33,174 nt of DNA from an uncultured Pseudomonadota bacterium (GTDB taxonomy: Bacteria > Myxococcota_A > UBA796 > SXON01): contig CAIXRH010000101.1 in NCBI GenBank assembly GCA_903921785.1, forward strand, positions 1 through 33,174. Direction: 5' to 3'. The notes under the pieces are model-generated. The model was not told the DNA's origin, made no database searches, and was given only the letters and a program-made list of their open reading frames with translations. Position 1 is the stretch's first letter; each line of letters opens with the position of its first letter. This document shows positions 11,590 through 30,432 of the stretch, one piece after another. The translations under genes and the position numbers were made by a program.

Positions 11590-12230
11590 CGGGGCTTCTG
11601 GGGCGCGAGGGCGTCGAGGAGGAGGGTGGGGGCCACCGCGAGGAGGGCGGCTGCGGCGGAGGGGGCGGACGGGGCGGAGGCGGCGGAGGGGGCGGACGGG
11701 GCGGAGGCCGACGCCGCGTTCGGGGCGCTCACGGCGCGGAGCAGCCCGTCGGCGGCGGCTTCGACGAAGGCGGCGAGCACCTCGACGGGGACGTCGTCGC
11801 GGACGTACCCCCACGCCACGCCCTCTTCGAGCACCGAGACCATGGCGCGGCGCATCAGGGCGTCCCGGGCGGCGCGCACCCGCGCGGCGACGGCGGGGGC
11901 GTTCGTTTCCAGCTCCGTCCAGAACCCGGGGACGAACTCCGCGGGGAGGGCGGCGGTGGCGGCGGCGAACGCCTGGAGGCGCTCGGGGAAGGGAATCGGC
12001 GCGGCGCGGACGGCGGCGAGCTCGGCCTCCAGGGCGGCGAGGCGCCCGAGGAGCACGGCCTCCACGACGTCGTCGAGGGTCGGAAACACCTTGTAGAGCG
12101 TTCGTTTACTGGTAGCCGCCGCGGCGGCGAGCGCGTCGGTGGTGAGCGCGGCCAGGCCGCCTGAGGCGTACAGGCGCCCGGCGGCGTCGAGGATCCGGTC
12201 GTGGGGGGGCGCGGAGGCGGCGGTACTCAT
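11586..12230 (-). CDS. TetR/AcrR-family transcriptional regulator
   Basis: A 214-residue protein. The N-terminal DNA-binding domain reads DRILDAAGRLYASGGLAALTTDALAAAAATSKRTLYKVF in consecutive segments (11-49); the helix-turn-helix TTDALAAAAATSKRTLYKVF and the Y-x-x-F end are typical of TetR. The rest is an Ala-rich helical ligand/dimer domain. Near residues 170-192 there is a low-complexity Ala-Ser-Pro tract (from GGCGGAGGC/GGGGCGGAC repeats at about 11640-11705) that is probably a flexible insertion. The protein probably represses its own operon through the paired operators at 12222-12300, since the first overlaps its start codon. The stop overlaps the sulfotransferase start. No ribosome binding site precedes the ATG; instead a short leader frame ends two bases upstream. 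Confidence 0.88.
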   Translation of the reverse strand: MSTAASAPPHDRILDAAGRLYASGGLAALTTDALAAAAATSKRTLYKVFPTLDDVVEAVLLGRLAALEAELAAVRAAPIPFPERLQAFAAATAALPAEFVPGFWTELETNAPAVAARVRAARDALMRRAMVSVLEEGVAWGYVRDDVPVEVLAAFVEAAADGLLRAVSAPNAASASAPSAPSAASAPSAPSAAAALLAVAPTLLLDALAPQKPR

Positions 12231-12247
12231 GTCTACAGTTCAGTACC
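12222..12247. promoter_or_regulatory. palindromic operator O1 over the tetR start codon
   Basis: GGTACT (12222-12227), 14 bases, AGTACC (12242-12247). On the coding (complement) strand the core is GAACTGTAGAC followed by the tetR ATG, so a bound dimer would cover the start of the message. The same 26-bp geometry recurs in O2, with centres 53 bp apart, close to five helical turns. Assignment to the adjacent TetR protein is inferred from position. Confidence 0.7.
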
Positions 12248-12283
12248 ACCGCCGCTCGGTGGGGGCGAGCGGGCGGTACTCAT
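12233..12283 (-). other. 16-codon leader ORF upstream of tetR
   Basis: On the complement, an ATG at 12283 with a good Shine-Dalgarno GGAG seven bases upstream (12291-12294) encodes MSTARSPPPSGGGTEL and stops at TAG (12235-12233), two bases before the tetR ATG. Its first residues mimic the tetR N-terminus (MSTAASAPP). It is out of frame with tetR. It may be a translated leader that feeds ribosomes to tetR by reinitiation, because tetR lacks its own ribosome binding site. Equally it may be a passive relic of a 53-bp duplication. Confidence 0.45.
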
Positions 12284-12300
12284 TTTGTGTCTCCAGTACC
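12275..12300. promoter_or_regulatory. palindromic operator O2 upstream of tetR
   Basis: GGTACT (12275-12280), 14 bases, AGTACC (12295-12300), identical half-sites and spacing to O1. On the complement strand it contains GGAG, seven bases, then ATGAGTACCGCC, the same first four codons as tetR. The whole unit therefore looks like a duplicated copy of the tetR 5' end and operator. Confidence 0.7.
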
Positions 12301-12366
12301 GCGGCGGGGGCGACCCCCTTGGGGACGTTCGTCGTAACCAAAATCAGCGTTAGGCAGCGCGTTCTT

Positions 12367-12412
12367 ACCCTTCTCCCTTCGGGAGAAGGTGGCGCGGAGC
12401 GCCGGATGAGGG
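12367..12412. repeat. two-hairpin REP-like dispersed element
   Basis: A 9-bp stem CCTTCTCCC / GGGAGAAGG with TTC loop (12369-12389) is followed immediately by GGCGC-GGA-GCGCC (12391-12403) and GGATGAGGGG. This hairpin pair with a GATGAGGGG tail belongs to a sequence type that, from memory, is scattered through intergenic DNA of many GC-rich proteobacteria. It opens the gene-free stretch upstream of tetR. Confidence 0.6.
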
Positions 12413-12488
12413 GACTCACAGCGCCCCACGCCCAGCCCGGCCGTCCGCTCCGGAGCGCCGCGCCCCCACCCCCCAAACAACCCCCGAG

Positions 12489-12640
12489 GTGACCCCCTCA
12501 CCCCCCGACTTCCTTGGCCTCCGCGGCGCCCCAGCCCAAGGAACGGCCTGGGTGACCCCCTCACCCCCCGACTTCCTTGGCCTCCAGGCCCCCGGCGCCC
12601 AAACAACGCCCAAGGTGACGCGTCCCCCCCCAAGTTCTTT
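12489..12640. repeat. 63-bp tandem repeat
   Basis: Units begin at 12489, 12552 and 12615, exactly 63 bp apart, with GTGACCCCCTCACCCCCC followed by GACTTCCTTGGCCTCC in the first two. The third diverges after about 25 bases. The end of the sequence before 12489 (CCCAAACAACCCCCGAG) matches the end of unit 2, so a decayed unit precedes. The period is a multiple of three and both strands stay open, but the translations (Pro-rich or Gly/Arg-rich) look non-protein. It lies in the 12301-12927 gap, where I see no gene. Confidence 0.75.
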
Positions 12641-12656
12641 GGGGCCGCCCGCGCCC

Positions 12657-12756
12657 GCCGCCGCGGCAGCGCGACCACCACCACCGCCGCGACCCGCCTC
12701 GCCACCACCGCCGCGCCCACCGCCGCGGCAGCGCGACCACCACCACCGCCCCGCCC
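12657..12756. repeat. CCACCACC-rich degenerate repeat, about 62-bp period
   Basis: A block CCGCGGCAGCGCGACCACCA continuing with CCACCGCC begins at 12661 and again at 12723, separated by further CCACCACCGCC-type sequence. It directly follows the 63-bp tandem repeats and precedes dispersed repeat copy B. Extreme strand asymmetry (C-rich top, G-rich bottom) could favour unusual structures. Confidence 0.6.
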
Positions 12757-12760
12757 GCCC

Positions 12761-12843
12761 CGCCATTCTCGCCCCGGCGGCTCCTCGACCGCCGAGGCCG
12801 ACCGGGCGGAACGTCGGCGTCGTGTCACCAGCCCCTCGACACC
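12761..12843 (+). repeat. dispersed intergenic repeat, copy B
   Basis: Begins CGCCATTCTC (shared exactly with copy C at 25031) and continues CGGCGGCTCCTCGACCGCCGA, CCGGGCGGAA, then CACCAGCCCC and TCGACACC (shared with copy A). It thus bridges the other two copies. It lies 85 bases upstream of the ferritin-like operon, in the same orientation relative to the downstream gene as copy C is to arsR. Nothing promoter-like was recognised between 12844 and 12927 with confidence. Confidence 0.7.
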
Positions 12844-12927
12844 GCTGCCCCCAAAGGTGTAGGCTCCGCTACGTGAGGGCGGTCCCTGCGCACGTCGTGG
12901 GGGGACGGCCCCCACCTCGGAGTGCCG

Positions 12928-13593
12928 ATGCTGCTGCGCCGCGCGATGATCCGCCTGGGGGTGCCCCTCCTCTGGCGGCGGATTGCCCAGGTCCAGGCCG
13001 CCCGGCTCCTGCGCTTCGGCATCACCGAGAAGGACAGCGAGTGGCAGATCCTCCACGCGCTCGACGACGTGGACGACCCCGCCACCCGCGCCCGCGTCCT
13101 CCAGCACGCGCTCGAAGAGAGCCACCACGCCGCGGAATTCACCCGCGTGTCGCTCAACGTGGCCGAGCGCCTCCCCCCGAAGCCGCTCCCGCCCCGCGCC
13201 CCGATCTACGAGACCGGCAGCGGCGTGGAGGGGCTCGCCGGCTTCGCGGCCTACGCCAACGTCGGCGAGGTGGACGTGTTCGAGCAGTTCGACGCCTACG
13301 CCGCCGGGATCGGCCCCGGCGAGGCGCGGTCCGTCTTCCGGGAGTCGAAGCTCGACGAGCTCGGCCACGTCGGCCTCACGCGCGCCATCCTCGACGAGCT
13401 GGTGCCCGACAAACGCCGCGCGGACTGGCTGGTCACGAAGGTACGCCTGCGCCGCGCCTGGGACGTCTGGCTGCGCTTCGGCAAGACGCTCGGCGAGATC
13501 AACACCACCCTCGTCCTCACCGCGCTCTACCTGCTCGCCGGGCTCCTCTTCGGCTGGCCCGCCTGGCGACGCCTCGTGGGCGAGAAGCGTTGA
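12928..13593 (+). CDS. ferritin-like (diiron-type) protein with C-terminal membrane helix
   Basis: A 221-residue protein. Two E-x-x-H motifs in predicted helices, EESHH (63-67) and LDELGH (E144, H147), plus additional Glu residues (EVDVFEQ near 114-120, E139) give the E...ExxH...E...ExxH pattern of ferritin-like diiron four-helix bundles. A hydrophobic helix (about 194-213) near the C-terminus should anchor it in the membrane. It could be an oxidase or hydroxylase acting on a lipid-like substrate, but this is a guess. GGAG five bases upstream favours ATG 12928 over GTG 12922. The stop overlaps the next start as TGATG, so it is translationally coupled to the carbamoyltransferase-like gene. I could not assign it to a named family. 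Confidence 0.7.
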   Translation: MLLRRAMIRLGVPLLWRRIAQVQAARLLRFGITEKDSEWQILHALDDVDDPATRARVLQHALEESHHAAEFTRVSLNVAERLPPKPLPPRAPIYETGSGVEGLAGFAAYANVGEVDVFEQFDAYAAGIGPGEARSVFRESKLDELGHVGLTRAILDELVPDKRRADWLVTKVRLRRAWDVWLRFGKTLGEINTTLVLTALYLLAGLLFGWPAWRRLVGEKR

Positions 13594-15401
13594 TGGACAT
13601 CCTCGGCCTCTCCAGCGGCGAGCTGGGCTCCGGCGCCAGCCTCGTCCGCGACGGCGCGCTGCACGCCTGCGCCCGCGAAGAGCGGTTCACCCGCCAGCGG
13701 CTCGACCCGAACCCGCCCAGGTTCGCCGCGGAGCATTGCCTCCGCCAGGCCGGTCACCCCGCCGCCGGGCTCTCCGGCATCGCCGTGGCGGGCGACCCCG
13801 CGGACCGCTTCACCCGCGTGCTCACCGGCACGCTCGGCCAGGGCTTCCCCTTGATGGTCCCGGCGTTCGTCCGGTCGATGTCCGCCTGGATCGGCCACCA
13901 CCTCTGGGAGCGCGACAGCCTCAGCCGACTCCTCGACGTGGACCCCGCCGCGATCCAGTACCGCGCCCGCCACCGCTGCCTGAGCGCGGCGGCGGTTCAG
14001 GGCTCGGGCGTCGACGAAGCGGCGATCCTCGTGGTCGACACCATCGGGGAATGGACGACGACGACGATCGCCCGATGGAAGGAGGGCGGCGCCCCGGAGG
14101 ACGTGGAGCGCTTCGAATACCCGCACTCGCTCGGGCTGCTCAGCGCCGCCGTGGCGATGCTCCTCGGGCTTCGCCCGTGGGAAGGCCTCGCCCCGCTCTG
14201 GGACCTCGCCGCCTGGGGCCGCCCGACGCTCACGTCGCGCTTCCGCCGCGTGCTCCAGGTGCACGAGGACGGCACCTACCAGATCACTCCCGGCTTCCTC
14301 CGCTTCGCGGAGCTCTTCGAGCCCCCGTACGGCGACCCCTGGACCGGCGCCTTCACCGACCTCTTCGGCGCCCCCCGCGACGCGCGCCGCCCCTGGCCGT
14401 TCCGCGCCGGGGAGGCCCCCGCGGTGGTGGACACCGAGGATCAACGCCACGCGGACATCGCTGCGTCGCTGCAGGTGGTGATCGAGGAGGCGATGCTCGG
14501 GCTGGCGCGGCGCGCGAAGGCGAAGACGGGCGCGGCGCACCTCTGCGTCGCCGGGGCGCTGGCCGGGAACGCCTCGGCGATCCTCCGTCTCCGTCGGGAG
14601 GCCGGGTTCGCCTCGGTGCACGTGCCCGCCGACCCGACCGGACTCTCCGCGGGCGCGGCGCTGCTGCTCGCCGCCGAGCGCGGGGCGCCGCTCTCGGGGC
14701 GGGCGCCGCAGCCCTTCGGCGGGCGGGCGTGGCCGGCGGGTCGGGACCTCGCTGCGGTCGCGCGCATGGACCCGATGTGGTGGCAGCGGTTCCGCCGCCG
14801 CGGCACCGCCCCCGTACGCGACGCCCGGATCGAGGTCACGCCCGAGCTCGACGACGACACGCTCCTCGCCCAGGTCGTGGCGGACCTCGCCGCCGGACGC
14901 ATCGTCGGGTGGCTGGAGGGCGCGTTCGAGTCCGGTCCGGGGGGGCTGGCCCATCGGGTGCTGCTCGCCGATCCCCGCGATCTTGCGGTGGCGCGGCGGC
15001 TCACGGAGCGGGTCACCGGGGCGGCGGCGTTCGCGCCGACCACGCTGCTCACGCGCCCCGAGGCCGTGGCCGCGCTCGTCGACGAGCCGGCGCCCACTGC
15101 CGGGTGGGTGCCGCTGGCGGCGCACGCCTCCGCGGCGGCGCGCGCGGCCGCGCTCACGGCGGTCCACGCCGACGGCACGCTGCGGTACCTCCCGGTGGAC
15201 GCGGCGGTCGCCCCCCGGATGGCCGCGCTGCTGGATCGCTGGAGCGCGTCGACCGGCGCGCCCGGCCTGCTGCTGGCCGATCTTCGCGAGGCGGAGGACC
15301 CCCTCGCGGCGTCCCCGGCCGATGCCTTGTTGATCTTCATGCGCACGGAGGTCGACACCCTGGTGCTCGACCAGGGCCTCGTGCGAAAGGAGCTCCCATG
15401 A
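13593..15401 (+). CDS. NodU/CmcH-type carbamoyltransferase homologue, probably catalytically degenerate
   Basis: A 602-residue protein of normal length. Recognisable landmarks are AREERFTRQRLDPNPP (27-42), VDEAAILVVDTIGEWTTTTIARW (140-162), FEYPHSLGLLSAA (174-186), LCVAGALAGNASAIL (317-331), GWLEGAFESGP (439-449) and HADGTLRYLPV (525-535). Family members join carbamoyl phosphate with ATP in a YrdC-like domain and transfer the group in a Kae1-like domain. Here many usual motifs are replaced: the N-terminal HDSAA is GSGAS, HHxxHA is RHRCLS (126-131), MGLAxYG is absent, GPRALGxRS is GPGGLAHRV (448-456), and LLNTSFN is LLADLRE (559-565). D149 remains. A structural or regulatory pseudoenzyme, or one with a changed reaction, is likely. 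It is coupled at both ends (TGATG, ATGA). Confidence 0.8.
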   Translation: MDILGLSSGELGSGASLVRDGALHACAREERFTRQRLDPNPPRFAAEHCLRQAGHPAAGLSGIAVAGDPADRFTRVLTGTLGQGFPLMVPAFVRSMSAWIGHHLWERDSLSRLLDVDPAAIQYRARHRCLSAAAVQGSGVDEAAILVVDTIGEWTTTTIARWKEGGAPEDVERFEYPHSLGLLSAAVAMLLGLRPWEGLAPLWDLAAWGRPTLTSRFRRVLQVHEDGTYQITPGFLRFAELFEPPYGDPWTGAFTDLFGAPRDARRPWPFRAGEAPAVVDTEDQRHADIAASLQVVIEEAMLGLARRAKAKTGAAHLCVAGALAGNASAILRLRREAGFASVHVPADPTGLSAGAALLLAAERGAPLSGRAPQPFGGRAWPAGRDLAAVARMDPMWWQRFRRRGTAPVRDARIEVTPELDDDTLLAQVVADLAAGRIVGWLEGAFESGPGGLAHRVLLADPRDLAVARRLTERVTGAAAFAPTTLLTRPEAVAALVDEPAPTAGWVPLAAHASAAARAAALTAVHADGTLRYLPVDAAVAPRMAALLDRWSASTGAPGLLLADLREAEDPLAASPADALLIFMRTEVDTLVLDQGLVRKELP

Positions 15402-17142: not shown

Positions 17143-17151
17143 GTGGCCCCG

Positions 17152-18297
17152 ATGCCCTCCTCCGCACGCATCCTGGTGGTGGATGACGACGCCCGCGTGC
17201 GGCGGAGCGTCGAACGTGTCCTGACGGTGGGCGGGTTCTCGGTAGAGGGCTTCGAAGATGCCCAAAAGGCGCTTGGGGCCGTGCGCGCAGGAGGGGTCGG
17301 CGCGGTCCTCTCCGACATCCGGATGCCCGGGATGGACGGGCTGGAGCTGCTGCGAGCCGTCCGCGCCGTGTCCCCCGACCTGCCGGTCCTGCTGCTGACG
17401 GGGAGCCCGGAGCTGCAAACCGCGATCGACGCCGTCGAGTACGGCGCCACGCAGTACCTGGTGAAGCCTCTGGAGCCCGAGGCGCTGCTGAAGTCCGTCC
17501 GCAGGGCGGTCTTCCTCGGCGCGCTGGCGGACGCGAAGCGGCGCGCCTTGGGCCTGGTCGGCGACCCTGGCCCGGGGGATCCCACCGAGCTCGCGGTCCG
17601 GTTCGACTCGGCCCGGGAGAAGCTCTGGATCGCCGTACAGCCGGTGGTCGACATCGCCGCGCGTCGGATCGTGGCCTACGAAGCGCTCCTGCGCACCGGC
17701 GAGGCCGCGTTCAGCGGCCCCCAGGCCCTCCTCGACGCGGCCGAGCGCCTCGGCCGCGTGCACGAGCTCGGGCAGGCCGTCCGCGCCGCGGTGGCGCGCA
17801 TCGTGGCGGAGGCGCCCGAGGGGGTGCGGATGTTCGTGAACATCCACCCCTCCGACCTGGAGGACGACGAGCTCTACGAGGCCACCTCGCCGCTGTCGAG
17901 GTTCGCCTCCCGCGTGGTGATCGAGGTGACCGAGCGCCACTCACTCGATGGCATCGCCGACCTGACCGAGCGCGTTGCCCGGCTGCGCCGCCTCGGGTAC
18001 CGCATGGCCGTGGACGACCTCGGCGCGGGCTACGCCGGCCTCACCAGCGTGGTCCGGCTGCAGCCGGAGGTCGTGAAGCTGGACATGTCGCTGGTGCGGG
18101 GCTGCGACACCGACGTCGCCCGGCAGGGCGTCATCCGCTCCATGGCCGAGCTGTCGGGGCGGTTGGGCATGGAGGTCGTGGTGGAAGGGGTAGAGACGGA
18201 GGCCGAGGCGACCTGCCTCCAGAGCATCGGCTGTTCGCTGCACCAAGGGTACCGGTACGCGAGGCCTGCGAAACCCTGGCCCGCGGTTGCCTGGTAG
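17152..18297 (+). CDS. receiver-EAL response regulator (c-di-GMP phosphodiesterase type)
   Basis: A 381-residue protein. Residues 6-120 are a CheY-like receiver with acidic pocket DDD (11-13), phospho-acceptor D55, T83 and K105. Residues about 148-380 are an EAL domain. E177-A-L, N230, E258 and E261 in EVTE, D288-D289, K309 in KLD, E345 in EGVE and Q365 before GY are all present, so c-di-GMP hydrolysis to pGpG is expected. There is no GGDEF domain. AGGTGG (17141-17146) lies five bases before ATG 17152, which favours this start over GTG 17143. It starts immediately after the SGNH gene and ends within 20 bases of the modifying-enzyme start, so it probably belongs to the same transcription unit. 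It is a plausible target of the histidine kinases at 20796 and 23216. Confidence 0.9.
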   Translation: MPSSARILVVDDDARVRRSVERVLTVGGFSVEGFEDAQKALGAVRAGGVGAVLSDIRMPGMDGLELLRAVRAVSPDLPVLLLTGSPELQTAIDAVEYGATQYLVKPLEPEALLKSVRRAVFLGALADAKRRALGLVGDPGPGDPTELAVRFDSAREKLWIAVQPVVDIAARRIVAYEALLRTGEAAFSGPQALLDAAERLGRVHELGQAVRAAVARIVAEAPEGVRMFVNIHPSDLEDDELYEATSPLSRFASRVVIEVTERHSLDGIADLTERVARLRRLGYRMAVDDLGAGYAGLTSVVRLQPEVVKLDMSLVRGCDTDVARQGVIRSMAELSGRLGMEVVVEGVETEAEATCLQSIGCSLHQGYRYARPAKPWPAVAW

Positions 18298-18316
18298 CGT
18301 GATCGCGTCCATCGGC

Positions 18317-20287
18317 ATGACGGCGGCGGAGCTCCTGGACGCGGCGTGGTCCGCGTTCTGCGAGCGGAACACCTCGCGGCCGGCGTGGCTCCGAGGCCGA
18401 CTGGAGCGGGTCCAGGCGCGGTGGCTTGAGCGGGTCGAGTCCCCCGGGCGCCTCTTCCTCGGGCCGACCGGATCGCCGGCGTTCGCGTTGCTCCGATGGG
18501 CCGCGGCGCTCGCGGAGTCGCCGCCGGCGCCCGCGTCCCAGGTGGAGGCCGGCGTCGCGATGCTCGCGCTCTACTTCGCGGTGCGCATCCAGGACGACAT
18601 CGTGGACGAAGACGCCGACAAGAACGACGTCTACGTGCTTCAGGCGCTCACGGCCGAGGCCATGGCGGGCATGGCCACCGCCGGCGCCAGCGCCGCCGCG
18701 CTCGTCACGGCGGCCGAGGTGCTCGGCCGGTTCGCAGACGCTGCGCTTGAGGACGACGCCCTCCGCCGCGGCCTCGAGCCCTGGACCCCTGGCGCGCTCG
18801 CCCGCCAGGGGGCCAAGTTCCTCCCGATGGCCGTGCCGCTCCTCGCGCTCGCGTCGCCCAGCGAGCACGCTCGCGTCGTCGAGGTCGTCGAGGCCATCGG
18901 GCGCGGCCTTCAACTCACCAACGATCTCCTGGGCGTTCGTCGGGACCTGGAACGTGGCCTCCAAAGCCCCGTGCACGTCACCCTCGGCCTGCATCCCGGG
19001 CGCCATCCCTCGACGGCGGTCGGCCCCGCACTGCGTCGGGCGGCACGAACCGGCACGTGGATGGAGCTGCTCGCAGAGGTCGACGCCGCCTTCGTCGACA
19101 CCCGGCGTGCCGCGGGCCCCAGGCTCACCGAAGAGCTGGACGAGCTCCTCGCCGGTCGGCTCCGGCATCTCCACGTGCTCTTGGGGATGGCCACGCTCCG
19201 CGCCCGCTTTGAAGCGCCGCGGGTCGTGGCCGACATCGAGGTCACCCGGGAGTGCAACCTCCGCTGCCCCGACTGCTTCGTCTTCGCGCAAGAACGCGAC
19301 CTCCGGCCCGGACACCTGCCGTCGTTGTCGATGGCGCTCGTCCGCGAGATCCTCGTCGAGTTGACTGGGTACGACGCCACGCTTCACCTCACCGGCGGCG
19401 AGCCGATGGCCTGGCCCTCCTTCTGGGACACGGTCGAGGAGGCGGGCGCGAGGGGCATCCCGAGACTGGTGGTGAACACGAATGGCGCCTTCGTGGATGC
19501 GGCCGCCGCCGCCCGGTTCGCCGCGTCCCCGATGGAGGTGAGCCTGCTCGTCAGCGTCGACGGGCCGCCGGGTGTGCACGAGCGAGCGCGGGGTCAGGGC
19601 ATGGAAGGGCGGGCGCTGGAGGCCCTCCGCGTCGCGCACGCCGCGGGGGTTCGCGCCCAGCCCGCGAGCATCCTCACCGAGGAGCTCGTGGCCTTCGGGG
19701 TGGAGGCCTGGTACCGATGGCTGGAGGAGCGGCTCTGGATGAGCCCCGGACTCGTCTTGTGGCCGCTGTTCCTCCAGCAGCAGCCCCGTCGCCAAGGCAC
19801 GGGCGGGATGTTGTCGCCCGAGGCCACCCACCGCGCCGCGCGCGCGGTGGCCAACCTCCGGCGGGAGAAGGAGCCGATCGTGGTGGCGGATTACCCGGTC
19901 ATCAATCCGCTTCTCCGACGGTATGGAGTGCCGACCGAGGAGCTGTGGGCGTGCGAGGCGGGTCGGGGGCGCTTCTGCGTCCAGGCCGACGCCACGCTCA
20001 GCCCCTGCCACCCCTTCCGGCTGGGCCTGGGGAAGCTGGAGGAGGGACAGGTCTCGGGCTTCATTGAGCGGCTCTTCGCGCACCCCGACTACCGCCGGGT
20101 CGGCGAGCGCGAACACACGGGCTGCGGGACGTGCGCCGAACGGTCGGTGTGCGGGAGCTGCCAGGCGTTCTCCATGGCGCGTGGGGAGCCGCTCGGCGGC
20201 AACGACGGGCACTGCCGCGAGGTGCTCGCGCCGGAGTCGGACTCGATCGCCACGACCTCGCCGACACGTCGCCTCGCGACAGGATAG
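18317..20287 (+). CDS. fusion: isoprenoid-synthase-like domain plus radical SAM/SPASM enzyme
   Basis: A 656-residue protein when started at ATG 18317 (GTG 18299 and TTG 18287 are in-frame alternatives). Residues about 1-295 have the all-helical isoprenoid synthase pattern: Asp-rich motif IQDDIVDEDAD (91-101) binding Mg-diphosphate, RQGAKF (163-168) and QLTNDLLGVRRD (199-210) as the second motif. Residues about 300-656 are radical SAM: CNLRCPDC (C313, C317, C320 bind the 4Fe-4S cluster), TGGEP (359-363), VNTNG, then SPASM-like cysteines C546, C554, C564, C603, C606, C612, C615 and C633 for auxiliary clusters. SPASM enzymes commonly modify ribosomal peptides, and ComQ, which prenylates ComX, has the isoprenoid synthase fold. 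The next gene encodes a 93-residue protein. I therefore read it as a peptide-modifying enzyme with two chemistries. The fusion is unfamiliar to me. Confidence 0.85.
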   Translation: MTAAELLDAAWSAFCERNTSRPAWLRGRLERVQARWLERVESPGRLFLGPTGSPAFALLRWAAALAESPPAPASQVEAGVAMLALYFAVRIQDDIVDEDADKNDVYVLQALTAEAMAGMATAGASAAALVTAAEVLGRFADAALEDDALRRGLEPWTPGALARQGAKFLPMAVPLLALASPSEHARVVEVVEAIGRGLQLTNDLLGVRRDLERGLQSPVHVTLGLHPGRHPSTAVGPALRRAARTGTWMELLAEVDAAFVDTRRAAGPRLTEELDELLAGRLRHLHVLLGMATLRARFEAPRVVADIEVTRECNLRCPDCFVFAQERDLRPGHLPSLSMALVREILVELTGYDATLHLTGGEPMAWPSFWDTVEEAGARGIPRLVVNTNGAFVDAAAAARFAASPMEVSLLVSVDGPPGVHERARGQGMEGRALEALRVAHAAGVRAQPASILTEELVAFGVEAWYRWLEERLWMSPGLVLWPLFLQQQPRRQGTGGMLSPEATHRAARAVANLRREKEPIVVADYPVINPLLRRYGVPTEELWACEAGRGRFCVQADATLSPCHPFRLGLGKLEEGQVSGFIERLFAHPDYRRVGEREHTGCGTCAERSVCGSCQAFSMARGEPLGGNDGHCREVLAPESDSIATTSPTRRLATG

Positions 20288-20307
20288 GGGACACTGCTAG
20301 TGGTCCC
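20287..20307 (+). other. hairpin between the modifying-enzyme gene and the small-peptide gene
   Basis: GGGGACACT-GCT-AGTGGTCCC starts at the final base of the stop codon and can form a nine-position stem with one mismatch and one G-T wobble. It has no following T-run. It could be a processing or attenuation site that uncouples expression of the downstream peptide gene from the enzyme gene. This is weak evidence from one sequence. Confidence 0.35.
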
Positions 20308-20349
20308 AGCGAGCTCCGGGCTTCGCGCCACCGCACCGCCACGCCAGCC

Positions 20350-20355
20350 CAAGGA
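20350..20355 (+). promoter_or_regulatory. strong ribosome binding site of the small-peptide gene
   Basis: AAGGAG lies eight bases before the ATG at 20364. It is among the best Shine-Dalgarno matches in the window, suggesting that the small protein is made in larger amounts than the modifying enzyme, whose start has none. Confidence 0.7.
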
Positions 20356-20363
20356 GAGACTCG

Positions 20364-20645
20364 ATGTACACGGGATTCACCGCGGCAACCCCGGCTCAGG
20401 CCGCATTCGTCACCAAGGCGACGAGCACCCAGGGGCAGTGGGCAAACGTCTGGGGGCGCATCCAAGGGGACGCGAACACGCAGGAGCGCGCACGCCGCGT
20501 CGCCGTGCTCGCGAACGAGTGGAACATCCCGCTCAGCGAGGACGATGCCCTGGCCCTGGCACGTCACTTCGATGCAGCGGTGGGCCTCTACGCTCAGAAG
20601 AGCGGCTTGATGCAGTATACGCCGGGCGTCAACGAGATCAGCTAG
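20364..20645 (+). CDS. 93-residue candidate peptide precursor (ComX-like position)
   Basis: A 93-residue protein, MYTGFTAATPAQAAFVTKAT at the start and GLMQYTPGVNEIS at the end. It has no cysteine, no signal peptide and no membrane helix. Trp residues are at 26, 30 and 53, and Tyr at 2, 76 and 85. Residues about 37-80 form an amphipathic helical region (ERARRVAVLANEWNIPLSED) faintly like Nif11-type leader helices. It lies 76 bases after the radical SAM/isoprenoid-synthase gene and before a ComP-like membrane kinase, where comX sits in Bacillus. I therefore propose a ribosomally made, modified signal or product peptide. Which part would be the mature peptide is unknown; the C-terminal 13-15 residues, or a Trp-containing segment if prenylated, are candidates. 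It is longer than typical ComX (about 55-75). It could instead be an unrelated small regulator. Confidence 0.7.
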   Translation: MYTGFTAATPAQAAFVTKATSTQGQWANVWGRIQGDANTQERARRVAVLANEWNIPLSEDDALALARHFDAAVGLYAQKSGLMQYTPGVNEIS

Positions 20646-20795
20646 TCCACCGTGCGTCCGAATCCCCACGAGGCTCCTCGTCGCCGACCGGTCTGGGACA
20701 GGCGGTGCCGGCAGCACGGATCCGCTGTATCGGGTGGGCATAAGGCCTGCGGCCGAAGCTCGCTCGGCGCGATCGCGTAGGTCGGACGCTCGACG

Positions 20796-23192
20796 ATGCG
20801 CCGCGAGTTGCTGCTGCTCGTGCTGCTCTGCCACGTCGCCGTGGCCACGGTCGGCTACGCCACGCTGCGTGAGTCGCGCGATCTGGACTTCGCCGTGGCG
20901 CAGGGGTCGAGCCAGGACTGCCCGTGGCGGACGCTCCCCGAGGAGGGGTGTCTGCAGAAGATCGGCGACGTGCCGCTGCGGCTGTCCTCGTTGGTCCGCG
21001 AGCCCGGCTACCTGGACCGGGAGGAGACCGAGGCTTGGCGGGACGACCAGCGCCGGCTGACCGTGGCGATGTCCGCCCCGCAGGTGACTGTGCAGATCGA
21101 CGGCAGACCCTCCCTCGTTCCGACACGGGCAGGGGCACCATCCGGCGCACGAGCACTGTTGGGACTCCTGACCTGCGCGCTCCTGGCGGGCGTGGGGGCC
21201 TTCGTTGCGTGGCGGCGTCCGCGCAACAGCGCAGCGAGCGCGCTGTTCTGGGCGAGTCAGGGGCTCGTCCTGACGGGGCTCCCGACGTTGGTCAATACTT
21301 TGCGTGGGCTGACGGTGAACCCCGAGCTCGACCGTTGGCTCTACACGGCGAACCTGGTCGGCCTGGTGATGGCACCCCTCGGCATCATCCGGCTGCTCGG
21401 GGTCTTCCCGGTTCCGGTCCTCGCACCGCGGACCGACCGATGGACACGAGATGTCCCCGCGGCCGTGGGGTGCGGCGCCCTGGCGCTGGAGCTCCTCACC
21501 GGGATTCACAGCGCGGTGGTGTTTTTCGCCGCCGCCATGGTCTACACCGCCGTGGTCTTCTTCCTGGGCCTTGGCGCGAAGAAGACACATCAGGCGCGGG
21601 TGCAGAGCCGATGGCTGCTCTGGGGCGCGGTCGTACCGATGCTCGCGTACCTGGTCTTGCGCTTGCCGTACTTCGTGGGGCTCGTGGCCGGGGACCCCGA
21701 CGACAGCACCCTCTTCATCCTGACCGCCACCCTCCCCATCGGCGCCGCCGTCGGCATCCTGCGCCACGGGATGCTGGACATCGACGTCGTGATCCGGCGC
21801 ACGATCGTCGGAGCGATCGCCGCTCCCATCGTGCTGTTCGGCTACGCCCTCGCGGTCTCGGCGTTCGCGGGCGGCCTGACACATCAGGTCTTCGACTCGT
21901 CCATCCTCGCCACCGCGATCATCCTCACGCTCCTGCTGCTCCCGTTGCAGGCCAGGCTCGAAGGATGGGTGGACCGGCTCTTTTTCCGGAACCGACACGA
22001 CTACCGCGCTGCGCTCACGGGCGTGCCGGAGGCGCTGTCGACGGTGTCACGATCGGAGGATGCCGCCCGGCTGGTGCTCGAGCAACTGCTCCGGGTCTTG
22101 GAGCTCGATCGCGGCGTGGTCGCGCTACCGGGAGGGGCGACCTGGTCGCTGGGCGGTGCCGCTGGGCCCGACGATGAGCGGACGTGGGCACCGTTGCGCT
22201 CAGGTGGGGCCCACCTCTCCGGCGACGGCGATCCGGTCGACGTCTGGCTCGCGAGCCAAGGTCTGGTGCTCGCGGTCCCGCTGCGCACCTCCGAGGCCTT
22301 CGTGGGGGTCCTCGCCCTCTCCGGAAAGCCGCTCGGGAGGTTGTACTCGGCCGAGGATGTGGCGATGCTCCGCGGCGTTGGCGCCGGGCTCGCGCTCGCG
22401 CTCTCCCGGGCCTTCGCATTTGAGACCATCGAGGGCATGAACGCCGACCTGGAGCGAAAGGTCACGGCGCGCACCCAGGAGCTCGAAGGGGTGCGGCTCC
22501 GGCTGTTCCAGTGGGAGAAGATGGCGGCGCTCGGTGTGCTCTCCGCCGGCGTGGCCCACGAGCTCAACACTCCCCTGGGGGTGGTGATCTCGACCGCCGA
22601 TCAGCTTCACCGACGCTTACCCTCGGGATCGCCGGAGTCGAGGCTCGCGGCGCTCGCCCATGAGGCCGCGCGGCGAGGCGCGGAGATCGTCGCCGACCTC
22701 GCACGGTTTTCGCGTCCGCAGGGGCAGGCGCGCCAGCCCGTCGATCTCCACGAGGGGCTCGACACCACCCTGCGCATCCTGGGGCGGTTGATCGCCGACA
22801 ATGACATCCGCGTGGTCCAACACCGCACCGACGAGCCGATGGTGCTCGAGGGGTATCCGGCCACTCTCCATCAGACGTTCGTGAACCTCGTCCAGAACGC
22901 GGCGCAGTCCTTGCCGCGGAGCGGGTGCATCACCATCACGACGGAGCGCGACGACGCCCGGCTGCGCGTGATCATCGCGGACGACGGCCCGGGGATTCCT
23001 CTCGAGCTCCGCGAGCGCATCTTCGAGCCGTTCTTCACGACGCGCGCCGCGGGCGAGGGGACCGGGTTGGGCCTGAGCCTGTGCTACACCTTCGTCACCG
23101 AGCACGGGGGCTCGATCCGCGAGGAGGGCGCCCCGGGGAAGGGTGCGCGCTTCGTGGTCGAGCTGCCCGCTGAGCTTCCCCCTGCCCCGTAG
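20796..23192 (+). CDS. ComP-like multi-pass sensor histidine kinase with GAF domain
   Basis: A 798-residue protein. An N-terminal membrane helix (about 4-22) is followed by an exported segment (about 25-115), then roughly seven or eight hydrophobic segments (about 115-395), ending in [20 protein letters not shown], a juxtamembrane signature I associate with ComP-type kinases. A GAF-like domain (about 410-550), a coiled coil ([18 protein letters not shown]), a HisKA helix with phospho-acceptor H588 ([10 protein letters not shown]) and an HATPase domain ([27 protein letters not shown]) follow. It should sense an external or membrane ligand and autophosphorylate. B. subtilis ComP has a NarL-type (HisKA_3) kinase core, unlike this one, so similarity concerns the sensor half only. 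It lies 150 bases after the small-peptide gene; that gap contains a short inverted repeat ACGAG-GCTC-CTCGT (20668-20681). Confidence 0.88.
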
Positions 23193-23196
23193 GAGG
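23191..23196 (+). promoter_or_regulatory. ribosome binding site that questions the start of the next gene
   Basis: AGGAGG, a perfect Shine-Dalgarno, lies four bases before CTG at 23201 but 19 bases before the first conventional in-frame start, GTG 23216. It overlaps the stop codon of the upstream kinase. Confidence 0.55.
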
Positions 23197-23215
23197 CGTC
23201 CTGTCCAAGCCTGCT

Positions 23216-24916
23216 GTGCTCCTCGTCGACGATGAGCCCATGATCCTCGAGAGCCTCGGGATGCTCCTCGGGGACGAGTTCGAGGTCTTCACCGCCACCT
23301 CTGCAGCCGCCGCCCGGGTGACGCTGGCGCAGCATCCGGTGGATGTGGTGGTCTCCGACCAGCGAATGCCCGGCGAGTCCGGCGTGAGCTTCCTCACCTG
23401 GCTCCGGACCGCGTACCCCGACACCGTGCGGATCCTCCTCACCGGCTACGCCGACTCCACCGCCATGCTCGGCGCGATCAACGACGCCGCCGTCTGGCAC
23501 TTCGCGAACAAGCCGTGGAACAACACGGAGTTACGTAACCTTCTGCGCCGCGCCACAGAGTCCCGCCGGCGGGAGCTCGAGCTGGCCGCGAGCCGGGCCC
23601 GGTTCTCCGCGCTCGTGGACGGGGCCCCCGTCGCCATCGTGAGCTCCGACCTCGACGGCGTCGTCGACGTGGGCAACGAGACCTGGCGCCGCCTGGCCGG
23701 CGGGGGGGCGGGGTCGATGCCGGAGGCCCTGGGCACCGACGCCTGGACGCGCCTTGTCGCCGAGCTTCAGTTGGACCGGGTGGTGGTGCATCGGGAGCTC
23801 AGCGTACGTGAAGCCCCGGTCTTGCTCAGCGCAGCGCTGATCCACGAGCCCGCCCTGGGGTGGCGGGTTCAAGTCTCAGCCTTGGACCTACGCCCGCAGC
23901 GCGAAGCGATCGTCACCCTGACGCGCGTCGAGGGCCTCGCCACCCTCCGAGACGTGGCCGCAGACGTGGTGCACGACTTCAAGAACCAGCTGACCGTCAT
24001 CCTGTCCATGGGCGCCCTCCTGCGGGACGGCCTGCCGCCCGGGCCCGAGCAGGAGTGCGCGACCGACATCGTGGACGCCGGCCACATGGCCTCGGAGCTC
24101 GCGCACCAGCTCATCGACCTGACCCGAGGGCATGGCGCCGCCACCTCCGGCGTGGACGTCGGCTCGATCGTCACCCGGCTCGCCCACTTCCTCGGGCGCA
24201 CGCTCGGCCGGCGCATCCGGGTGGAGGTGGCCGTGGCGGAGGGGCTCCCGGTCGTGCGGGTGTCCCCCTCGGGCCTGTACCACGCCCTGCTCAACCTCGC
24301 GGTCAATGCCCGGGATGCGATGCCCGGCGGCGGAACCCTCCGCCTGGAGGCCGCGGAGGTCAGCGGCAGGGTCTGCATCCGCGTCGCCGACACCGGCGCA
24401 GGCATCCCCGCCGAGCACCTTCCGCGGGTGTTCGATGCCTTCTTCACCACCAAGGCCCCGGGAGCGGGGACGGGGTTGGGGCTGCCGATGGTGCGGAGGG
24501 TCGTCGAAGGGGCGGGTGGGGAGGTGCGCGTGACGTCGAGCGTAGGCGTGGGGACCACCTTCGAGCTCCTCCTCCCCGTCGAGCCGCTCGGAGCGCCGGT
24601 CGGCCGTACGTCCGGCCGCCGGATCGCGGTCCTCGAGACGCCGCGGCTCAGCCTGGCGGTCGCGCAGGTCCTCCGGCAAGAGGGCCACGAGGTCCTGGAG
24701 GTGTCCGAGGTGCCGACCGACCCGACCCGGTTCGACCTCCTGGTCGCCGCGTCCGAGCTGCTGCCGAGCGGGCCGGACGGGCTCCTCGTACTCTGGCTCG
24801 GACCGCCCGCGGGTGCCAATCTGGGGCCGAACCTGCCCAAGCCGTTCGGCTCGACCGAGCTCGCGGCGGCGGTGAACCGGTGCCTCGGCGGGTTGGGTGT
24901 GCCGGCCGACGCGTAA
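23216..24916 (+). CDS. receiver-PAS-histidine kinase with C-terminal degenerate receiver
   Basis: 566 residues from GTG 23216. Order: a CheY-like receiver (1-118; acidic pocket DDE at 5-7, phospho-acceptor D48), a PAS-like segment (about 135-225), a HisKA-type helix with H253 in VVHDFKNQLT, HATPase (NLAVNARDAMPGG, ADTGAGIP, GTGLGLPM), and a C-terminal domain (about 455-560) shaped like a receiver. That last domain has lost the acceptor Asp (FDLLVAASELL) though it keeps LPKPF. It is soluble, with no DNA-binding domain, so it is a phosphorelay middle component rather than a ComA equivalent. D48 is a natural target for the preceding membrane kinase. CTG 23201 may be the true start: it restores SKPAVLLVDDE, a complete first beta strand, and has an ideal ribosome binding site. 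24917-25030 holds nothing recognisable. Confidence 0.88.
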   Translation: MLLVDDEPMILESLGMLLGDEFEVFTATSAAAARVTLAQHPVDVVVSDQRMPGESGVSFLTWLRTAYPDTVRILLTGYADSTAMLGAINDAAVWHFANKPWNNTELRNLLRRATESRRRELELAASRARFSALVDGAPVAIVSSDLDGVVDVGNETWRRLAGGGAGSMPEALGTDAWTRLVAELQLDRVVVHRELSVREAPVLLSAALIHEPALGWRVQVSALDLRPQREAIVTLTRVEGLATLRDVAADVVHDFKNQLTVILSMGALLRDGLPPGPEQECATDIVDAGHMASELAHQLIDLTRGHGAATSGVDVGSIVTRLAHFLGRTLGRRIRVEVAVAEGLPVVRVSPSGLYHALLNLAVNARDAMPGGGTLRLEAAEVSGRVCIRVADTGAGIPAEHLPRVFDAFFTTKAPGAGTGLGLPMVRRVVEGAGGEVRVTSSVGVGTTFELLLPVEPLGAPVGRTSGRRIAVLETPRLSLAVAQVLRQEGHEVLEVSEVPTDPTRFDLLVAASELLPSGPDGLLVLWLGPPAGANLGPNLPKPFGSTELAAAVNRCLGGLGVPADA

Positions 24917-26159: not shown

Positions 26160-28241
26160 TCAACGATCGCCGAGGGCGTCGAACACGGCCTGGGCCGCCT
26201 GACGCACGGAGAACGGCTTCTCCAACGCGGCCCGAAAGCCGCGGCGGAGGAGGTCGGCGTGGGTGTTGGCCTCCACGTAGCCGGAGGCCGCGATGAGGCG
26301 GGCGGCGGGATCGAGCGCGAGGATGCGCTCGGCGGCCGCCACTCCGCCCATGCCGCCGGGCACCGTGAGGTCGAGAAAGACCACGGCGTAGGGCTCGCCC
26401 CCCGCGCGGGCCTCGGTGTAGCGGCGCACCGCCTCCTCCCCGTCGGCGCATTCGTCGACGCGATGGCCGCGCCCGGTGAGCATGGCGACGAGCACCTCGC
26501 GCACGTCCACGTCGTCGTCCATCACCAGCAGGCGGGCGCTGCCGCACGTCGCGGGCTCGGCGCACGGCGGCGGGGACGCGGAGACCGGGCGCTCCGCCGT
26601 CGGCAGCAGCAGCGTGACCGTGGTGCCCACCCCCACCGTGGAGGTGATGCGCAGCTCGCCGTCGTGCTGCCGCACGATGGAGTGGGAGGTGGTGAGCCCC
26701 AGGCCGCTGCCGAGTGCGCGGGTGGTGAAGAACGGGTCGAGCACCCGCCGGAGCAACGCCGGCTCGATGCCATGCCCCTGGTCGGCCACGGTGATCCGCA
26801 GGTACCGACGATCTTGCGCGAGGTGGTCCGGCACCTCCTCGCGCTCGGCGAGGGCCACCTGCACCCGCACCACCCCGCCGCCCGGCATCGCCTGCGCGGC
26901 GTTGAGCACGAGGTTGTGGATCACCCGCGCGAGCTGGGAGGCGTCCGCGGTGGCGGCGGGGAGCCCCTCGGGAGCCTCCATCACCAGCCGCGTGGCGGTG
27001 CCGGTGAGCGCGAACCGGGCGGACTCCTCCACGAGGCCGACGAGCGCCGTGGGGGCGAGGTTCGGCGCCCCGCCCCGGGCGAAGGTGAGGATCTGCCGAG
27101 TGAGGTCCCGGGCGCGGTCCACGGCGCGGGTGGCGGTGTCGAGGCGGGCGTTGAGCCGCGTCGGGTCGCGGTCGAGCGCGAGCAGCTCCAGGTTGCCCTG
27201 CACCGCCATCAGCAGGTTGTTGAAGTCGTGGGCGATCCCCCCCGCCAGCGTGCCGAGCGCTTCGAGGTGGCGCTGGTTCTGGCCGGCCTGCTCGCTCCGC
27301 ACCCGATCGGTGACATCCTCAGCGACCCAGCACAACCCGTCACGCCCGTCCGCGAGGTGGATGCGCTGCCGGCTGGAGTGGAGCACGCGGGTCTCGCCGT
27401 GGGCGTGCAGGAGCTCCTCGGTGGGGACGGGCTCATCCGCCCCCCGGGCCGCGGCTTCGGCGGTCGCGTAGGCCGCCGCGTCGTCGGGGCTCCACACCGC
27501 ATCTCCCTCCGCGACGATCCGGGCCGAGGTGACCGAGAACGTCTCCTCGAAGGTACGGTTCACGAACAGGTAATGGTTCGCATCGTCCTTGAGGGCGATC
27601 GCCACGGGGACCTGCTCGAGGATGAGTCGGTGCCGCCGCTCCGACGCGGAGAGCGCCAGGTTCTCCGCCTGTAACCGGCCATGAAAGTAGGCCAGGCCGC
27701 CCACGATCACCACGATGGTGCACGAGACGTTGAGGAAGAAGAAGAACGGCAGCGAGGCCGGCGGGAGCGACTCGATCGGGGTGAGGTGCGGCTCGATCCC
27801 CAGCTCCGCGACCAGGAAGCAAGCGGTGACGGCGATGAGCCCCACCCGCGCTCGACCTTCGAGGAGGAAGAACGCGGCGACCGGCGCGAGGTACGACCAG
27901 ATGGCGAACCCCCCGGACGGCGCGAAGCCGCCGAGCACGACGGTGTTGATCACGATCACCGCGAGAATCCCGGACCCCTGGAGGAGCGCCACCGCGCGCA
28001 CCCGCGACGGGTCCCGCCGCACCCACAGGATCGAGAGCCCGACCGCCACGAAGAAGCAGAGCTCCACGACCGGAAGGACCCGGAGCCCGACGGCAGCGTA
28101 CGCCACCGCGAAGAGGCCGATCGCGATCCACCCCAGCACGAGCAGGCGAAGCAGCAGCCCGTGGCGCAGCTCGGGCTGAAACCCCCGGTCTGAAGCGGAA
28201 AGAGCAGAACCGGGGAACGGAGGGAGGCCCAGCGGTGACAT
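26160..28241 (-). CDS. hybrid sensor histidine kinase (membrane, PAS, HisKA, HATPase, receiver)
   Basis: A 693-residue protein from ATG 28241 ([11 protein letters not shown]). Five or six membrane segments occupy about 27-187, followed by a short coiled coil, a PAS domain (about 203-315), a HisKA helix with H338 in [11 protein letters not shown], an HATPase domain ([30 protein letters not shown]) and a C-terminal receiver (about 565-693) with phospho-acceptor D624 in [10 protein letters not shown]. The DFNNLL-type core is usual for hybrid kinases that work with orphan receivers or phosphotransfer proteins. No partner response regulator is adjacent. It is divergent from the TonB-receptor gene at 28385, with 143 bases between, so the two could share regulation, though that is unproven. 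The frame extends further upstream but without recognisable protein. Confidence 0.9.
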
Positions 28242-28342
28242 CGCCCGCACGGGTACCGCCGTTCCGGCGGATGATCCACAAGGCGCAGCACGTATGTCCG
28301 TACTGTCACGGTGGTCTGACGCAGACAGACGCGTGGTGGAGC

Positions 28343-28359
28343 GTCGACGGTACGTCGAC
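28343..28359. promoter_or_regulatory. symmetric sequence upstream of the TonB-receptor gene
   Basis: GTCGAC-GGTAC-GTCGAC, a palindromic hexamer repeated with a five-base spacer, 25 bases before the receptor start. A smaller inverted repeat GTCTG-ACG-CAGAC is at 28314-28326. Either could be an operator in the divergent 28242-28384 gap. No Fur-type AT-rich box is visible. Confidence 0.3.
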
Positions 28360-28384
28360 CCCCCTGCGTTACGATCGAGGCTCC

Positions 28385-30418
28385 ATGTGCACCGGTCCCC
28401 TCCTCCTCGTGCTCCTCGTCGCCAGCGGCGTCGCCCGGGCGGAGGACCCGGCCACCGGCGCCGCCCCCGGCAGTCCCACCCCGCCGTCCGACCCGGCGCC
28501 GCCGACCGAGCCCGCCCCCGCGCCGCCCCCGCCGCCACCCCCGCCCGAAGACGACTTCCACGTCGACGAGACCGTGGTCGTCACCGGCTCGCGCACCGAG
28601 CAGAAGCTCAGCGAGACGGTCGTTCCGACGGAGGTCGTCACCCGGCAGCAGGTGGAGGAGTCCGGCGCGCAGGACGCGGCCGACGTGCTGGAGACCGTCC
28701 CCGGCGTGGAAGTGGAGCGCAGCTTCCGCGGCGCCGGGGTGCGCATGCAGGGGCTCGACTCCGAGTACGTGCTCATCCTCGTCGACGGCAAGCGGGTCAT
28801 CGGCGCACGGGACGGGGTCATCGACCTCTCGCGCATCCCCGTCGAGCGCATCGAGCGCATCGAGGTGGTGAAGGGCGCCGCGTCGGCGCTCTACGGCTCG
28901 GACGCGATCGGCGGCGTCATCAACATCATCACCCGCGCGCCGGAAGAGCCGCAGAGCGGGGAGGTGACGGTGTCCGGCGGCGGGCGGGACACCGCCGGGG
29001 GCGGCCCGCTCTTCGACGTGTCCGGCGTCGCCGGCTTGCACCGGGAGAAGGGCTCCGTCGGCCTCAACGCCGGCTGGCACCAGTCGCCGAGCTACGACCT
29101 CGACCCGTCGGACGACCAGACCGACGGCAACGCGATCCAGCAGCTCAACCTCGGCCTGGAAGGCGAGTTCGATCCCGTCACCTCCACGGCCCTCACCGCC
29201 GGGGCCAGCTACACCCTCCAGGACACCAGCGGAGTGGACGACACGCGCGGCGCCGTCTACGACCGCCGCAACCTCACCGAGGAGGGCGGCGCCCACCTCG
29301 GCGCGCAGACCCTGGTCGGCCTCACCAAGATCAAGGGCGGGGTCTCCGGCACCTTCACCCGGGACCAGTACCTCGCGGACCAGCGCGGCTCCGACGCGAT
29401 GGACACCTACGAGGTCACGACGGAGGACCTCGTGCAGGTGGACGCGCAGGTCGACACCTGGATCAAGGGTGGCCACCTGCTCAGCGGCGGCGTCGAAGGC
29501 AGCTACGGCGCGATGACCTCGCCGCGCCTCTCCCAACCCGGCGAGCGGTTCCTGCTTGGGGTCTACGCCCAGGACGAATGGCGCCTCGGGAGCAAGCAGA
29601 AGTTCGCGATCGTGCCGAGCGCCCGGGTGGACGTCGACTCGTGGTTCGGCACCCACCCCACCCCGCGCCTCGCGCTCCGCTACGACCCCACCGAGCACAC
29701 CGCGCTGCGGCTGAGCGCCGGCTCCGGCTTCCGGGCGCCCACGTTCAAGGAGATGTTTCTCCGCTTCGAGAACGCCGGCGTCGGCTACGTCGTCGACGGG
29801 AACCCGGACCTGCGCCCCGAGACCGCGTGGAACGTGTCCGGCGGCGCGGAGACCAGCCCGGTCCCCGGCCTCCGCCTCCACGTCGACCTGTTCTACAACC
29901 ACCTCGACGACATGATCACCGTCGGGCTGGTGCAGGAGTCCACCAGCGAAACGCCGATGGACGAGTACCAGTACGTGAACGTCTCCTCCGCGCTCACCCG
30001 GGGCGGAGAGGTGGGCATCAACTGGCGTTACAAGAAATACCTCAGCGTCGACCTCGGCTACTCCTACACCGACACCCAGGACCTCGACCTCGAGCGCCCG
30101 CTCGACGGTCGTTCACCCCACCGCGGCACCTTCACGATCACCGGCCGCCACCCGAGCTGGGGCCTCAGCGCCACCGCCCGCGGCGAGATCGTCGGTCCGG
30201 CCACCTTCTTCCTCGACGAGGAGGGCGGCACCGACGGCGTGGACACCGACCCGTACCTCAACCTGAAGGTCCGCGTGGAGAAGTCCTTCTGGAAGGGCCG
30301 CCTGCGCACCTTCGTGGCGGTGGACAACCTGCTCGACGCGGGTGACGCCCTCTACGTGCACCTCGATCCCCGCGCGATCTACGGCGGGATCACCCTCACC
30401 TCCACCCACGACGAGTGA
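28385..30418 (+). CDS. TonB-dependent outer-membrane receptor (haem/cobalamin-receptor type)
   Basis: A 677-residue protein. Signal peptide [19 protein letters not shown], then a Pro-rich spacer (about 24-58) with a run of eight prolines that should span the periplasm. A TonB-box-like [10 protein letters not shown] is followed by a plug domain with [24 protein letters not shown] and [17 protein letters not shown]. The rest is a beta-barrel ending [22 protein letters not shown] (449-452) and NPDL (473-476) are the paired motifs of haem receptors such as HmuR, and also occur in BtuB-like receptors; the His usually found between them in haem receptors is absent here. The HmuY-like gene 14 bases downstream favours haem. 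GAGG four bases before ATG 28385 supports the start; the open frame upstream to 28235 is not receptor-like. Confidence 0.92.
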
Positions 30419-30432
30419 CCCCCGAGGCCCCC

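Follow-up and report, generated by a model that had tools for sequence, protein, structure and literature searches.

A prenyltransferase-like radical SAM/SPASM fusion gene keeps company with small-protein and sensor kinase genes in three bacterial genomes and may belong to a RiPP-type signalling cassette

In the window, by which we mean the whole stretch of DNA analysed (33,174 nucleotides; genome G000), a gene for a 656-residue fusion enzyme is followed by genes for a 93-residue protein, a multi-pass sensor kinase and a receiver-containing hybrid. The enzyme joins a trans-prenyltransferase-like domain to a radical SAM/SPASM domain, and its gene is followed by a small gene and a kinase gene in two further genomes as well, which is more than chance. 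We put the chances at about even that these genes form a signalling cassette of RiPP type, in which a bifunctional maturase would feed a dedicated two-component receptor. The features of the locus are as follows.

17143..18297, + strand: REC-EAL response regulator, c-di-GMP phosphodiesterase type (Pfam Response_reg 1e-27, EAL 7e-46)
18317..20287, + strand: fusion enzyme, 656 aa; residues 1-290 trans-prenyltransferase-like, ~305-640 radical SAM/SPASM (Radical_SAM 7e-13, AlphaFold2, structure matches)
18593..18607, + strand: first aspartate-rich motif DDIVD, residues 93-97 (alignment of 11 family members)
18911..18925, + strand: QLTND, residues 199-203, conserved Gln and ComQ-type pseudo-SARM N-D (alignments; PMC5331326, PMC13290415)
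19253..19276, + strand: radical SAM CxxxCxxC, C313-C317-C320 (alignment of three fusions, Pfam)
19952..20215, + strand: SPASM-type cysteines C546, C554, C564, C603, C606, C612, C615, C633 (invariant in three homologues)
20364..20645, + strand: 93-aa small protein, candidate precursor (conserved middle block, ribosome binding site, homologue in G029)
20796..23192, + strand: sensor kinase with TM, ~95-aa extracytoplasmic domain, ~8 TM, GAF, HisKA, HATPase (Pfam, hydropathy)
23216..24916, + strand: REC-HisKA-HATPase hybrid (Pfam)

The initial annotation had placed the fusion, small-protein, kinase and receiver genes in that order on one strand, and the coordinates bear this out, as they do its DDIVDED at residues 93-99 when numbering begins with the ATG at 18317 (the open reading frame spans 18287-20287). 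The REC-EAL gene ends about 20 nt before this ATG. The strong ribosome binding site ascribed to the 93-residue gene is AAGGAGAG, a few nt before its own ATG, and the 16-residue juxtamembrane stretch quoted for the multi-pass kinase is present in the product of 20796-23192. The receiver gene was described correctly in part: a receiver domain is there, but the last gene encodes a REC-HisKA-HATPase hybrid and not a plain receiver. Pfam found no HTH in this protein, in agreement with an output that does not use a DNA-binding regulator. No convincing promoter or terminator was seen within the operon, and the locus had no Rfam match. Elsewhere in the window, a sulfotransferase-like gene (- strand) and a carbamoyltransferase gene (+ strand) lie upstream of the cassette at 10249-15401, and a TonB-dependent receptor gene followed by one for an HmuY-like protein lies at 28235-31488.

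The sole Pfam match of the N-terminal domain was squalene/phytoene synthase (PF00494; E 0.0014), and membership of that family was rejected at 18.8 bits, below the Pfam cut-off of 26. An AlphaFold2 model of the fusion, built from 12 sequences, had a pLDDT of ~90 over residues 1-290 and of ~25-50 in parts of the C-terminal region. Residues 1-285 superposed on trans-isoprenyl diphosphate synthases (polyprenyl synthase 9imq, Z 22.3, rmsd 2.8 A, 263 aligned; VIA-align), and the top isoprenoid-fold match in Foldseek was the tryptophan prenyltransferase Ord1 (9v4i, E 9e-5), ahead of the synthases (5ze6, 4e-4). Both comparisons uphold the isoprenoid-synthase fold that had been proposed for this domain.

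Across the three fusions and eight stand-alone relatives (n=11), R90, D93, D97, D203, D210 and G214 were invariant. The second aspartate motif of the fusion reads Q199-L-T-N202-D203-L-L-G. In ComQ this motif must be NDxxx or GDxxx, and DDxxD, the form found in chain-building synthases, is unsuitable there for Trp prenylation (PMC5331326); N202-D203, kept in all three fusions, agrees with this pseudo-SARM rule. Trans-IDS-like prenyltransferases are marked by a Gln that precedes this motif (PMC13290415), and Q199 was likewise kept in 3/3 fusions, some stand-alone members having Gly at that site. The Ord1 residues altered in variants named in PDB titles, Q216A and D219A, lie as far apart as Q199 and N202. 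Because of the Q-x-x-N-D second motif, the Gln rule and the Ord1 spacing, prenyl transfer appears more likely than chain elongation as the activity of this domain, to judge from its motifs. This ComQ/Ord1-type motif pair (DDIVD; Q199-x-x-N202-D203) had gone unnoticed in the initial annotation.

The C-terminal part of the fusion matched Radical_SAM in Pfam (E 7e-13). Its CxxxCxxC and eight further Cys were invariant in all three fusions, and the Foldseek matches of this domain, modelled with low confidence, were anSME, ChlB, SuiB and SkfB. The Pfam match, the cysteine motifs and the peptide-maturase folds support the claim that the enzyme carries a radical SAM/SPASM chemistry domain. The best NCBIfam matches were also peptide maturases (StsB, the mycofactocin enzyme), and since all of them fell far under their cut-offs we claim no known radical SAM subfamily. 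Pfam gave no PqqD match in the fusion or its scanned neighbours; a diverged RRE could escape such a profile.

The fusion thus has likenesses to two groups of known enzymes. With SPASM maturases (SuiB, SkfB, StsB, anSME-like) it shares CxxxCxxC, the SPASM cysteines, the fold and an adjoining small gene, but its N-terminal partner is a prenyltransferase-type domain and not an RRE. With trans-IDS-like Trp prenyltransferases (ComQ, PalQ, Ord1 and the P-domain of ChrPC) it shares the fold, the first Asp motif and the upstream Gln, whereas the conserved Trp acceptor of that group is not visible in the three small proteins. ChrPC offers a precedent for a trans-IDS-like domain fused to a second modifying domain (PMC13290415, PMC10853753), which in ChrPC is a terpene cyclase rather than radical SAM/SPASM. 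No fusion of radical SAM and isoprenoid synthase domains turned up in the literature library searched, and to that extent the remark in the initial annotation that it knew of no such system holds. If our reading is right, the fusion would be the first enzyme known to us to combine prenyl transfer with radical chemistry of the SPASM kind.

The fusion occurs in the window genome, in G051 (52% identity) and in G029 (46%; contig CAJXRZ010000025.1), which are three species from three families of one order. It was present in 3 of the 71 species searched in the class, and no further intact fusion was found among 379 of the phylum. A fourth candidate (G097:C79; L031/L115) runs into unrelated sequence at a contig edge and was not counted; L115 1-554 holds a fusion-like piece similar to the G051 enzyme, followed by glycosyltransferase-like sequence, and G097:C79 is a probable assembly chimera.

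The order of fusion, 84-95-aa small gene and kinase was the same in all three genomes, and fusions that are 46-52% identical therefore keep the conserved company that the initial annotation had anticipated in relatives. The four-gene order was seen directly in two genomes, one of them G029, where a REC-PAS-REC gene stands in for the hybrid beyond the kinase after a gap of ~0.8 kb. For G051 the order was pieced together: the kinase runs off contig C481, C699 opens inside a matching kinase gene, after which come two REC-PAS-HK genes in tandem, the hybrid's counterparts, and the join of the two contigs is likely. Upstream genes differed, being REC-EAL in the window, an S8 subtilase in G029 and a divergent radical SAM gene in G051; the REC-EAL gene is absent from this place in both relatives. 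The G029 subtilase gene (L006 8955-9908) overlaps the fusion gene by 4 nt, and its product, in which no obvious signal sequence was seen, is a candidate leader peptidase. The fusion loci yielded neither a transporter nor an RRE.

Hydropathy of the kinase indicated one TM segment, ~95 extracytoplasmic residues, ~8 TM segments, GAF and the kinase core, and a Cys pair in the extracytoplasmic domain was conserved in all three kinases. The core is HisKA (PF00512), not HisKA_3 (PF07730). Of 361 genomes searched with the sensor half, which is unique within the window genome, only the three that carry the fusion gave a match with E below 1e-100, the next best being 7e-14, and the fusion and this close sensor subfamily therefore co-occur strictly, with three lineages as support. 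Predicted strands and one helix in residues 28-112, modelled with moderate confidence, fit a PDZ domain by eye; no PDZ chain was listed among the structure matches of these residues, and a PDZ sensor was not confirmed. GPCR-like matches of the sensor came from a low-confidence model and were put down to a general likeness among helix bundles. Distant sensor relatives were seen elsewhere in the phylum in stretches read without the fusion (L112 8958-11240 in G324; L114 852-3122 in G360), and these kinases have a distantly related extracytoplasmic and multi-TM sensor and weak HisKA_3 matches.

The small gene directly follows the fusion in all three genomes and is preceded in each by a GGAGAG ribosome site (AAGGAGAG in the window, GAGGAGAG and CGGAGAG in the counterparts); the fusion and kinase genes have weak ribosome sites in all three loci. 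The codon-position GC of the 93-aa gene (0.63/0.51/0.85) is typical of genes. Alignment of the window and G029 small proteins scored 70 against 23.8 +/- 4.3 for shuffles (0/2000), and on this measure the two are homologous; the window protein, searched against whole genomes, also matched the syntenic G029 gene (E 0.024). For the G051 protein sequence similarity was not significant, and it was grouped with the other two because of where it lies, its size, its ribosome site and the residues it shares with them. Conservation centres on a block at about residues 36-73, the N-terminus and tail being variable, and a C-terminal Ser is kept (P-D-M-L-S and P-D-L-A-S in two proteins, P-G-V-N-E-I-S in the third).

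Tryptophans are at W26, W30 and W53 in the window protein and at W51 in the G029 protein, and the G051 protein has none. The three small proteins share no Trp, Cys or Tyr and no tail contains Trp, so no conserved residue presents itself as prenyl acceptor, the chief gap in this reading; past its FDA motif the G029 tail is free of aromatic residues. Thioether (sactionine) chemistry is impossible on the window protein because it contains no Cys. Pfam scans up to E 10 matched the small protein neither to the ComX family (PF05952) nor to the RiPP precursor families Nif11, NHLP and PF14407. A Nif11 leader had been suspected by eye and was set aside, there being also no Nif11 in 58 relatives, as was PF14407 kinship (hhalign to a PF14407-like set, P 0.07).

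A peptide substrate for the fusion is supported by the surroundings of its stand-alone relatives, which adjoin PF14407 precursors and PqqD/M50 proteins. Seven of the nine loci examined with stand-alone relatives of the N-terminal domain contain a PF14407-like (Franean1_4349/Os1348) RiPP precursor of 70-78 aa. The precursors lie above the Pfam cut-off in L034/L076, L073 and L080 and below it (E 1e-9 to 1e-10) in L075 and L077, and those in L079 and L081 were detected only with a profile built from the other five. In L073, L075 and L076 the precursor gene immediately follows that of the enzyme, as the small gene follows the fusion. PqqD and/or M50 metalloprotease proteins were present in the precursor-bearing loci where tested, the M50 proteins being nearest to the daptide protease family, under its cut-off. 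The prenyltransferase-domain family therefore looks like a family of RiPP tailoring enzymes. Fusion and stand-alone loci share this isoprenoid-synthase-like enzyme family, but their precursor families differ, and the radical SAM fusion and dedicated kinase belong to the fusion loci only.

Predicted fold, motifs, gene order, sensor co-occurrence and the RiPP context of the stand-alone relatives are established, and we infer from here a substrate, a chemistry, and modes of export, sensing and output. The N-terminal domain, with its trans-isoprenyl-diphosphate-synthase fold, would probably put a prenyl group on a peptide, and the SPASM radical SAM domain would perform a second, radical modification. 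Both domains would act on the adjoining 84-95-aa protein, its middle block perhaps serving as recognition region and its variable tail with the C-terminal Ser as core. The product would be set free on the outer side of the cytoplasmic membrane and detected by the extracytoplasmic and multi-TM part of the kinase, with the signal passed to the REC-hybrid protein; in the window genome the REC-EAL partner may convert it to a change in c-di-GMP. The fold, the QxxND motifs, the maturase-like radical half and the stand-alone RiPP loci argue for such a cassette, as do the small gene with its strong ribosome site after the fusion in 3/3 genomes, the S8 protease of G029 and the confinement of the close sensor subfamily to fusion genomes. 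Against it stand the lack of a conserved acceptor, although characterised trans-IDS-like peptide prenyltransferases all act on Trp (PMC13290415), the lack of a precursor-family match, the failure to find a transporter or RRE at the fusion loci, the count of only three genomes and the split kinase of G051.

The locus resembles ComQXPA, a quorum-sensing system of Bacillus and some Clostridiales, in having an enzyme, a small protein, a multi-TM kinase and a receiver in that order on one strand, and in an isoprenoid-synthase fold with a DDxxD first motif (D1, D5) and an N-D second motif. It differs in the extra radical SAM/SPASM domain, in a small protein unrelated to ComX with no Trp within ~10 residues of the C-terminus (3/3), in a HisKA instead of a HisKA_3 kinase, in a hybrid receiver-kinase or EAL output without the LuxR-type HTH of ComA, and in its Gram-negative host. 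Because four of the features tested (ComX family, Trp tail, HisKA_3, LuxR-type HTH) failed, the locus is not ComQXPA by descent and works like one at most. Of the peptide-signal system with a prenyl and radical enzyme that the initial annotation put forward, the cassette remains the best supported reading, but the kinship to ComX, ComP and ComA does not hold. A fuller version is possible though somewhat unlikely: an independently evolved ComQXPA-like circuit with a Gram-negative pheromone, in which one polypeptide would both prenylate and radically modify the precursor for a dedicated multi-pass kinase. If true, it would extend ComX-type modified-peptide signalling to Gram-negative bacteria.

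The fusion and small protein might instead produce a RiPP of different function, such as an antibiotic, with the kinase and hybrid doing no more than inducing its production in response to another cue; we consider this rather unlikely. Two-component systems commonly regulate RiPP clusters, the stand-alone relatives lie in RiPP clusters without the fusion-type kinase, and distant sensor relatives occur in stretches without the fusion (G324, G360), all of which favours it. However, the close sensor subfamily is found only alongside the fusion, no immunity or export genes adjoin the small gene, and that gene occupies the place of comX, with the enzyme gene before it and the kinase gene after it.

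An action of the fusion on a small isoprenoid or lipid, with the 93-aa protein as carrier, adaptor or regulator, we regard as improbable. The sub-cut-off PF00494 match would fit it, as would the absence of a conserved prenyl acceptor and the existence of non-peptide members, such as BlsE, among SPASM-related radical SAM enzymes. However, the stand-alone relatives adjoin RiPP precursors and PqqD-M50 proteins, and at its second Asp motif the domain has the N-D of ComQ in place of the N-I-L-R-D of phytoene synthases. A catalytically dead N-terminal domain that only binds the small protein for its radical SAM partner might be imagined, as many radical SAM maturases depend on a recognition domain and no RRE was found in the fusion; the invariance of D93, D97, D203 and D210 in 11 members, fused and stand-alone, makes this very improbable. 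That the locus is a true ComQXPA member with a Trp-prenylated ComX-type pheromone is scarcely credible, for the gene order, fold and ComQ-type motifs are outweighed by the missing ComX match at E 10, tails without Trp (and a G051 protein without any), HisKA in place of HisKA_3, the lack of a LuxR-type HTH and a comQXPA census that found Firmicutes only (PMC4008528).

The stand-alone loci deserve attention in their own right, since the PF14407 and PqqD-M50 neighbourhood points to an apparently undescribed family of RiPP tailoring enzymes. The combination of enzyme, PF14407 precursor and PqqD-M50 protein, often with a cNMP-binding protein, recurs at L073 4962-7440, L075 4709-6952, L076 1-1837, L077 3791-7289 and in L079-L081, and is possibly an undescribed RiPP class. 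Second-messenger genes also recur near the prenyltransferase-like family; at L081 4458-5768, an adenylate/guanylate cyclase gene directly precedes the stand-alone prenyltransferase-like gene.
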